Shown one piece after another: positions 3,342 through 53,127 of a stretch of DNA of 64,000 nt (positions are counted from its first letter, which is position 1; every line of letters begins with the position of its first letter). Made by a program: the position numbers and the translations under genes. This DNA is from a virus. Location of the stretch: the IMG/VR virus record IMGVR_UViG_3300020183_000007, positions 62,001 to 126,000 of that record; one strand, given 5' to 3'. Below the pieces are notes generated by a model. That model had not been told where the DNA came from, did no database searches, and saw nothing but the letters and a program-made list of their open reading frames with translations.

Positions 3342-3354
3342 TTAAATCTCTTTA

Positions 3355-5283
3355 TCAGAAGGTTCCACAATCTATAGTTATGCCATCAATTGACCCACCA
3401 GTAATTGAAACGTTATTTGAGTTTTGTGTTGCAATAGTTCCTAGACTTAGGGTGCTTCTTGCTGCTGCTGCATCTACATCGTCTATAAGTGAACGACCAA
3501 ATGATGTGAAGGTTGCCAGTTCAGCAGTACCCGAACCAGTAAAGTATGGAAGTTTATCTGATGCAGATGTGAGTCCGGCAATTGCTGCCAACTCTGCATC
3601 ATATCCCTGAACATCAGTTCCTATAGCTAACCCTAGATTAGTTCTAGCAGTTCCAGCATCTGTTGCCCCAGTACCGCCATTGGCAATCGCAATAGCGGTA
3701 CCGTTCCATGTGCCAGTTGAAATTGTTCCAACAGATGTTAAGCTTGAAGCGGTTACTCCAGAACCAAGTGTAGTTGAACTTAAAACAGATGTTCCATTAA
3801 TTTTAAATTCTTTACCAGTCAACAAATTCAGGTGTTCAGATGAAGTCCACGAATCTGTAGCATCAACCCAGTTAAAAGTCTTGTCGGTAGCGCCTTTAAG
3901 AGTAATACCGCCGCCGTCAGCACTTGCGTCAGTTGGAGAGTCTATAGAACCGAGCTCCAAGTTTTTATCATCAACTGTGATTGTTGTTGAGTTGACAGTT
4001 GTTGTAGTTCCATTTACTGTTAGGTTTCCAGTAATTGTTACGTCTCCACCTGCAGATACGTTATTAAACTGAACATTACTATTTGTTGCCACTGCTTGAC
4101 CAATTGCAATTGTTGCATTTGATCCTTCGCCTGGAGTATGGGTAATGGTTACGCCTGTTCCAGCAGTAAGGTCTGACATATAGTTGCCAGTAGTATCTGT
4201 ACCAAGAGCTATTGTGCCAAGAAGAGCTACTGTTCCAGTTGCATTTGGTATAGTTATAGTCCTATCTGCAGTTGGATCAGTAACCGTTATGGTTGTTTCG
4301 TGATCGTCTGAACTTGACCCCTCAAAAACTACAGAAGAACCATTTATGGTTAGCCCTGCAAATGTTGGCGAATCAGAGGTGGCAACTGCTTGACCTATAG
4401 CAATTGTTGGAGTTGCCGTCTCCCCTGAGTTGTTGCTGAGTGTTACGCCAGTTCCAGCAACAAGAGATGCAACATAATCACCACTTGTGTCTGCCCCTAA
4501 GGCAACTGAGTTTGCAGCTATTGTTGCTGTTAATGTTGCGTTGCCGAGGTTTGTAACAGTAGCACTACCGCTAAGGTCTCCTCCTAATGTTATTGTAAAG
4601 TCGGCAACATCAAAATCTAATGTATTATCAGTATCGTCGTAGCTTACGTTAATTCCAGATTCTGTGTTTGAAGACACCATTGCTCCAACAACGTCTGCTA
4701 CAGCTTCATTAAAGTCTGTAACTGCTGTAGATGCTATTGCAATATTTGTTGCTCCGGCAGTTGTTAAACGACCCTGTGCATCAACAGTAAATGTTGCTAC
4801 TGCCGTAGCTGAACCATATGAGGCTGCTGTTACTGCTGTATTATCAAGATTGATTGTAACTGTATCTGTTGCAGAAGCGACTGATGTAAGACCTGTACCG
4901 CCAGAAATGGTCAAAGTGTCTGTGCCAGAAGTTATCGTTTGGTTAGCGCCACTGTCTGCAGCTACCGTAAACGACGTTGCAACGGCTCCAACAGCAGTAT
5001 CGACATATCCTTTTGTTACAGCGTGTGTGCTGGAACTGGGAGCCGGAACTATTACTGTCCCTGAAAATGTTTTATTACCAGAAATTGTCTGAGTGCCAGT
5101 TAGTGTTGCAAAAGCTCCGGGACCGGCTATTGCAAGGACGGACGTTGCATCTCCGCCCGAGTCACCTTTGCCATAATAAAGTGTTTCATCAACCTCGTTA
5201 AATGCTAATTCAGCATTTTTTAAACCAGACGGAGCGCCAGATGCTCCACTTGTTCTTCTTTTAATTCTAATTGTATTAGCCAT
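3355..5283 (-). CDS. Repetitive tail fibre / adhesin
   Basis: A 642-aa protein. The N-terminal 45 residues ([13 protein letters not shown], then [15 protein letters not shown]) match the adaptor segment common on phage fibre and baseplate-spike proteins. The rest is a low-complexity Thr/Ser/Gly/Ala-rich beta repeat. One repeat type recurs at least three times, each carrying GTGVT, then an [13 protein letters not shown]-like stretch, then a TINGSS-like turn. There are no obvious enzymatic residues and it ends in a short beta tail. It probably forms a trimeric beta-helical shaft that binds the host surface. Function by architecture and location; receptor unknown. Confidence 0.7.
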
Positions 5284-47266: not shown

Positions 47267-47289
47267 TTCCAAACTCCACTAGGGGAGTA

Positions 47290-47815
47290 TAAACCGATTT
47301 AAGCCTAGTGCGTTCCCCAGGTAACCCTGGGGAGGTATCTGAGTATCCACCTACATTCCAGTGTAGGCCCTCGCTCAAAGCCCCGGCGTTGAGAAAAATG
47401 GATAGAGATCTGGATAATCTCTATGGAATATTATAACATTTGACGGTCCCCAAGTGTTATAAGAACTCACTGTATCAGGCGGAAACCTGATCATATAGTG
47501 GATACAGGTATAATGTGGTATCAGTTCTGCATTATACCCACTAACGAACTGAAGGTCTCTCCGTAGATAGCTGACCAAAGCATTAGGGCATACCCCGATG
47601 TAGGATTGACGAATCCATTCTACCGTTGAAAATAATCTCAGGCAACGTATTACCTGAGTACCGGGAGTTCCCAGTCCCCGAAGGATGTCAGAGATTGTAC
47701 CAATATTGGTATAATCAACTGGGCGGTTCTAAAATTTTCCCTACCTTTGCATGGCGCCTCCCGGTGGTCCTGCTCGCTCCTATACCAGCGAGTGGGCCAC
47801 TGGCGCCATGAATTT
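47290..47815 (+). ncRNA. Candidate large structured non-coding RNA
   Basis: About 525 nt with no ORF but many strong local stems: CCCCAGG/CCTGGGG (47315-47332), CCTACA/TGTAGG (47350-47367), ATAGAGAT/ATCTCTAT (47402-47424), a 12-bp TTATAACATTTG stem (47431-47462), ATCAGG/CCTGAT (47474-47491), GGTATAATG/CATTATACC (47507-47538), CTCAGG/CCTGAG (47637-47658), palindromic TACCAATATTGGTA (47698-47711), and a final long hairpin CATGGCGCC...GGCGCCATG (47750-47810). GC content is intermediate between the island and the flanking genes. Large ornate phage RNAs (GOLLD, ROOL types) are a possible comparison; identity unknown. Confidence 0.55.
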
Positions 47816-49487: not shown

Positions 49488-49589
49488 GCCCGTTCTCATC
49501 AAAAACGGGCGCTAGGGGATGACAGGCGTCGACACAAGGAAAAGCCAAAGTGCACCTTGTGGAACTGGGTTCGAATCCCAGCATCTCCA
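49488..49589 (+). ncRNA. tmRNA-TLD-like RNA element with 5' hairpin
   Basis: A GCCCGTT/AACGGGC hairpin (49488-49510) precedes GGGGATG (49515-49521), which pairs with CATCTCC (49582-49588) as a 7-bp acceptor stem with one G-T pair. A T-arm CTGGG-TTCGAAT-CCCAG (49565-49581) is canonical. Between them, ACAGGCGTCGAC resembles the stemless D-region of tmRNA (GGNNTCGAC), and CACAAGG/CCTTGTG (49533-49561) forms a helix where tmRNA has P2, closed by only 15 nt. There is no message-like domain. It starts 15 nt after the SSB-like gene stop. A, not CCA, follows the acceptor stem, then CT. Confidence 0.6.
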
Positions 49590-52713: not shown

Positions 52714-52787
52714 GCTTCCGTAGCTCAGTCGGATAGAGCATCGGACTTCTAATCCGCAGGTCGCAAGTTCGAATCTTGCCGGGAGCA
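52714..52787 (+). tRNA. tRNA-Arg (anticodon TCT)
   Basis: Full cloverleaf: acceptor GCTTCCG/CGGGAGC, D-arm GCTC...GAGC, anticodon loop CTTCTAA (TCT, reads AGA), T-arm GCAAG-TTCGAAT-CTTGC, discriminator A. CCA is not encoded; CTA follows. AGA is used in the AT-rich phage genes and would be rare in a GC-rich host, a usual reason for phages to carry this tRNA. Confidence 0.92.
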
Positions 52788-53127
52788 CTATGGTTTATAC
52801 AAAGCTTTGGCTTAACCAATATATCTATAATGCCCATTTATCCAATTACAATTATAATAAGGACCCTAATGCATATTACTTTCAATATTCCTAATAGCGA
52901 TGTTAAAATTACTAAAGATATTGTCAGAACTTTTTGATTTTCAGAAATAAGTTTTGACATTTTAAATGTCGGTTGGTCTCTGTGAGGGTACGTTCTCAAT
53001 CGCCCCCACCGAGAACGCTCATGATCAGAGTTTAGCCTCCTTTTAACGAAGATCATTTTGCGTATTTACGCAAGCAGGGATCAACCGGCAGCTGGTTCAT
53101 ACAAACACATGAATCAGAAAGGCAATT
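52788..53127 (+). other. Intergenic with small ORF and RNA hairpins
   Basis: 52869-52937 is a 23-codon frame (MHITFNIPNSDVKITKDIVR...) with an AAGGA site; after its TGA the same frame continues 15 more codons, which could mean a broken gene or stop readthrough. At 52980-53110 there are RNA-like stems: CGTTCTC/GAGAACG around a C-rich loop, TTGCGTATTTACGCAA (53058-53073), and AACC/GGTT. Together they may form a structured leader of the next gene. Confidence 0.4.

Follow-up and report, generated by a model that had tools for sequence, protein, structure and literature searches.

Introduction

A tmRNA without a message had been on record for one phage only, Mycobacterium phage DS6A, in which a 'TLD only' tmRNA (TLD, tRNA-like domain) was reported; by the published account, RNA of this kind inhibits E. 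coli tmRNA (PMC4131195; PMC11915505). Organelles provide further examples, as the mitochondrial tmRNAs of jakobids and oomycetes and the CDS-less tmRNA of about 65 bp in Mallomonadaceae plastids have no tag frame (PMC11915505). A TLD with a UUCG-closed P2 was the construct crystallised with SmpB (PMC3985003), and the TLD and SmpB jointly imitate an entire tRNA and move into the A site when a ribosome has no mRNA downstream (PMC3929946). Here we describe a phage locus that encodes such a message-less RNA and a family of similar elements in many unrelated phages.

Results

The DNA analysed (the window, 64,000 nucleotides) comprises bases 62001-126000 of a virus record of 179,608 bases (about 179.6 kb) that contains phage tail-fibre and virion genes and in which no tyrosine integrase was found. 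The RNA element starts 42 nt after the stop codon of the upstream gene, in agreement with the original prediction of a start within 45 nt. That prediction had called the upstream gene SSB-like, a label we do not retain, since its 339-aa product gave no match in PHROGs or Pfam and no significant match in PDB. The span it gave, 49488-49589, contains the RNA at 49515-49589; 49488-49510 is a separate hairpin that an alignment found to be kept in most relatives.

Table 1. Features at the message-less tmRNA locus, in window coordinates.
Feature	Position	Strand	Description	Basis
Upstream gene, 339 aa	48453..49472	+	relatives' copies 89-90% identical	ORF
Hairpin GCCCGTT/AACGGGC	49488..49510	+	no T-run; between upstream gene and RNA	
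Message-less tmRNA (TLD with capped P2)	49515..49589	+	75 nt to discriminator A73	RF00023, pattern, fold
Acceptor stem, 5' strand GGGGATG	49515..49521	+	G3.U70 pair, invariant in family	
Stemless D-region ACAGGCGTCGA	49522..49532	+	tmRNA-type D-loop	sequence, RF00023 alignment
P2, 5' strand CACAAGG	49533..49539	+		sequence, fold
P2 cap AAAAGCCAAAGTGCA	49540..49554	+	replaces message and pseudoknots; variant of family cap motif	
P2, 3' strand CCTTGTG	49555..49561	+		sequence, fold
T-arm CTGGG-TTCGAAT-CCCAG	49565..49581	+		sequence, RF00023 alignment
Acceptor stem, 3' strand CATCTCC (49582-49588), and A73 (49589)	49582..49589	+		sequence, RF00023 alignment

Several other features of the region were recorded. 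G+C content is about 50% between about 32000 and 48000 of the window and 37-40% elsewhere in it, and the G+C-rich stretch stops just short of the TLD region. A Pistol self-cleaving ribozyme (47273-47340, plus strand, 48.0 bits) lies about 2.2 kb upstream of the TLD, and relative L314 also has one (3349-3416, 65.3 bits). ARAGORN called eight phage tRNAs (Arg, Leu, Lys, Met, Thr, Ile, Asn and Ser), located at window 52714-52788 and G000:C1 128864-177419, the nearest being 3.1 kb from the TLD.

Every predicted part of the element was found in the sequence: the acceptor GGGGATG/CATCTCC, the T-arm, the D-region ACAGGCGTCGAC and a P2 helix CACAAGG/CCTTGTG closed by 15 nt. P2 is joined to the T-arm by a GAA linker, and the gene does not encode CCA, A73 being followed by CTG. 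The Rfam tmRNA model RF00023 matched the element at 54.6 bits (E about 1e-18; gathering score 47) in an alignment spanning model positions 1-374, with 15 nt standing for the 310-column centre and no room for pseudoknots PK1-PK4. A message domain (resume codon, tag frame and stop) is absent. The minimum-energy fold consists of exactly the acceptor, P2 and T-arm at -26.2 kcal/mol, an energy unremarkable by itself (z = -1.7); it has neither D-stem nor anticodon arm and is thus not that of a tRNA. Consistent with this, neither the Rfam tRNA model nor ARAGORN called the element. The tmRNA-TLD pattern matched once in the window and never in 100 shuffles. The match to RF00023, the fold and the comparison with shuffles together confirm a 75-nt tmRNA-like TLD without a message, and the covariance-model search proposed as a check gave a match to tmRNA and none to tRNA. 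The element has all the parts of a tmRNA tRNA-like domain, namely a G3.U70 acceptor, A73, a stemless D-region, a T-arm and P2, and we regard it as a real, functional-looking RNA gene. Two other identities were considered and rejected: a permuted two-piece tmRNA, with the 3' piece before the 5' piece (RF04321; 14.3 bits, E 0.88), and, on model comparison, a split tmRNA.

Three relatives with an upstream gene 89-90% identical do not have the window-type element. Its intergenic site is occupied in relatives L313 (1789-1919), L314 and L315 by a tRNA-like RNA of about 130 nt, which three further contigs (L322, L323, L326) also have. Its ends pair as GGGGCT with AGCTCC or GGCTCC, including G3.U70, and it has a T-arm, A73 or G73, a helix AATGG/CCATT and a long inner hairpin; TCGAC and a tmRNA D-loop are absent. 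A tagged tmRNA was considered for this RNA and rejected, as the frame is open after GCA in L313 and reads GCA TAA in L314 and L315. Because it has no common frame and no Rfam match, we do not claim it as a tmRNA.

Scans of IMG/VR with a short-P2 TLD pattern and two looser patterns matched at least 120 contigs in each of three scans. From all sources, with IMG/VR supplying most, we collected at least 173 distinct elements of 60-87 nt that have acceptor and T-stem pairing; at least 101 were non-redundant after removal of sequences more than 85% alike and of one outlier, L300, which is probably outside the family. Ten pattern matches that lacked acceptor pairing had been rejected. Most elements measure 75-81 nt, and a second size class of about 60-69 nt has a short P2 hairpin only. 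In the longer class, P2 runs via a purine-rich bulge (often AAA) to a small inner hairpin, which has at least three pairs in 68 of 83 elements, compared with a shuffle mean of 29. The window cap AAAAGCCAAAGTGCA is a variant that also occurs in L019, L049, L061, L103 and L280, and the window D-loop GGCGTCGAC differs from the commonest one in the family, GGTTTCGAC. One natural element, L014 (4080-4143), has a P2 closed by a TTCG loop.

Among the matches listed, the closest cousins by eye were L021, L039 and L192, which share the acceptor, GGCGTCGAC and a GGAA linker. No protein was common to these and the window in the DNA fetched around the elements, and the RNA therefore sits in unrelated surroundings. 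Family members in general are flanked by unrelated genes, some lying inside tRNA arrays; for the 163 loci listed, a tRNA gene was found within 700 nt at 35 and CCA was encoded at 51 (about a third), and ARAGORN called hardly any of these elements. A near-exact search of IMG/VR with the window's own P2 and cap gave zero matches, as did blastn of the window region against phage isolates. Isolates were matched by a concatenated query of family members: in the Streptomyces phages LuckySocke, pSt2308, BRock and Shaeky, the element has tRNA genes on both sides and carries no RNA annotation. In BRock and LuckySocke, G3.U70 is retained and adjacent pairs have changed.

The third IMG/VR pattern put no condition on the acceptor stem, and its 89 unique listed matches were used to examine pairing. 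All seven acceptor pairs form in 79 of these; swapping 3' ends between elements gave 11 on average and 19 at most. The outer T-stem pairs were present in 79/79 (at most 18 in the swap control), and P2, whose pairing played no part in filtering, averaged 6.0 contiguous pairs as against 2.3 (at most 2.7) when partners were swapped; these statistics describe the matches listed, which are related sequences, so kinship remains in the swap controls. Compensating changes were seen across the family, and the acceptor-stem comparison suggested as a way of refuting the prediction left it standing.

In tRNA-Ala and tmRNA, alanine identity is carried mainly by the G3.U70 wobble and A73. With L300 left out, G1-C72, G2-C71, G3.U70 and A73 occur in 78/78 of the acceptor-free elements listed, in which pairs 4, 5 and 6 use GC, CG, AT and TA and pair 7 changes occasionally. 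None of the 78 has G-C at 3-70, though it would pair better. That a non-canonical pair is fixed amid compensating neighbours points to alanine charging by alanyl-tRNA synthetase as the selected property.

We searched fifty virus records, many of them fragmentary, for SmpB and tmRNA. Every match above the tmRNA cut-off was TLD-sized, and neither SmpB nor a full-length tmRNA was found on the element-bearing contigs checked in this set. The sole SmpB match came from a record (G049) whose pattern match is no TLD and was set aside. With phage SmpB absent from the contigs checked, host SmpB must, as far as is visible, be the one used.

Cellular copies are rare: across genomes from 84,980 species of bacteria and archaea, the strict pattern matched only 14 times. 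Eight of these are in Candidatus Poribacteria (L185, L186, L187, L188, L190, L191, L195, L196), as a conserved TLD-only gene of about 83 nt that usually adjoins conserved Na/Ca exchanger and PLP decarboxylase genes. An ordinary tmRNA adjoining SmpB is present in six of the eight genomes; neither was found in the other two, which may be incomplete. Of 59 Poribacteria genomes sampled, about 10 had a short match that clearly reached TLD strength. These chromosomal copies, most of which coexist with a normal tmRNA and SmpB, hint that cells may use such RNAs.

Discussion

Starting from the structure, missing message, family and conserved alanine identity documented here, we considered what the RNA does. 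Built as an alanine acceptor, it probably blocks host ribosome rescue or hijacks it. The reading we prefer, to which we assign a probability of about 0.6, is that the charged TLD RNA on host SmpB competitively blocks normal tagging at stalled ribosomes. The phage RNA would be trimmed like a tRNA, given CCA by a host enzyme and charged by host alanyl-tRNA synthetase. The resulting Ala-TLD would bind host SmpB and EF-Tu and take the place of host tmRNA in ribosomes stalled at mRNA ends, where SmpB would be occupied and the nascent chain accepted into a dead-end or tag-less product. Tagging would be blocked during infection because the phage RNA has no resume codon. The original suggestion, a mimic directed at alanyl-tRNA synthetase and SmpB, thus finds good support, as far as sequence and the published account of DS6A can indicate, in a complete TLD, an invariant alanine identity and that precedent.

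A simpler possibility, which we think unlikely, is that the RNA is purely a sponge that disables host tmRNA by taking up SmpB, whatever its charging state. The DS6A-like RNA is reported to inhibit tmRNA whether or not it can be charged, perhaps by titrating SmpB (PMC4131195), and inhibition as reported there needs no G3.U70 by itself, which counts against our preferred reading. The lack of the element in three relatives, the CCA missing from the window copy and its departure from the commonest D-loop weigh against that reading too. The family also keeps tmRNA-type D- and T-loops, although these are partly imposed by the search patterns. A sponge, however, has no need of G3.U70 and A73, which are invariant while adjacent pairs vary; were the RNA a sponge, G3.U70 would be expected to drift. 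No such drift is seen, and we therefore favour an active, charged competitor, to the extent that sequence conservation reports on function.

The invariant charging identity would also suit a tag-less rescue, in which Ala-TLD and host SmpB go into stalled ribosomes again and again, add alanine without a template and help the phage to recycle ribosomes free of host tags. In vitro, a TLD fragment with SmpB is reported to yield polyalanine without mRNA (Shimizu and Ueda 2006, cited in PMC3929946), and some organelles retain CDS-less tmRNAs, the mitochondrial ones together with SmpB (PMC11915505). Set against this, inhibition is all that a similar RNA has been reported to do in cells, and such tailing appears doubtful to us. 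We know of no release step for alanine-tailed chains. It is correspondingly improbable that phage RNAs of this widespread kind make of host SmpB and alanyl-tRNA synthetase a machinery for message-free alanine tailing on stalled ribosomes, with the chains released or diverted, in place of simple inhibition.

Far less probable is a remnant of an integration site or a decayed tmRNA. tmRNA genes are described as frequent integration sites (PMC10865867; PMC11915505), but attachment cores comprise the 3' half only (PMC10865867), whereas the elements have both halves with compensating changes; if those changes hold, this already disfavoured reading would be refuted. A tyrosine integrase was found in only 5 of 45 contigs, near the element in one, and on this survey an attachment site was rejected as the identity of the element. 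We likewise give very little credence to the alternative, raised originally, of an RNase P/Z cleavage mark at the 3' end of the upstream transcript, for although the RNA follows a stop codon closely and a tRNA-like fold would draw RNase P and RNase Z, the neighbours are unrelated, 35 of the 163 loci listed are beside tRNA genes, and cleavage needs no alanine identity, G3.U70 included.

That many unrelated phages have the element, which ARAGORN mostly misses, suggests that phages commonly target trans-translation. The invariant alanine identity separates an RNA that must be charged from a mere sponge, and the cultured Streptomyces phages make the charging question directly testable.

Comparison with known systems

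Bacterial one-piece tmRNA (RF00023) shares with the phage element the G3.U70 acceptor, A73, stemless D-region, P2 and T-arm, but has a message domain, a tag frame and pseudoknots, all three of which the element lacks. The full-length tmRNAs of phages Wakanda, Kumao, Bxz1 and Melnitz are likewise phage-borne ssrA genes; unlike the TLD element, they are annotated (Kumao and Wakanda as full-length) or reported with a message domain. The CDS-less organellar tmRNAs are derived by reduction, whereas the elements described here are phage genes without an SmpB of their own. The engineered TLD (PDB 2CZJ) has a similarly short P2 loop, comparable to the TTCG of L014, but is an artificial construct. The closest likeness is to the DS6A RNA, which is also phage-encoded, with little beyond the TLD and no tag. 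The window element, a phage-encoded TLD without a tag, lies outside tmRNA in the strict sense, the message being missing, and inside the message-less kind known from DS6A. With the kind itself known from that phage, the new points are its wide occurrence among phages, the P2 cap and the test of alanine identity: DS6A, to which we liken the element by description only, is a single reported case, and here the RNA recurs, unannotated, in many phages with a recurring cap motif.
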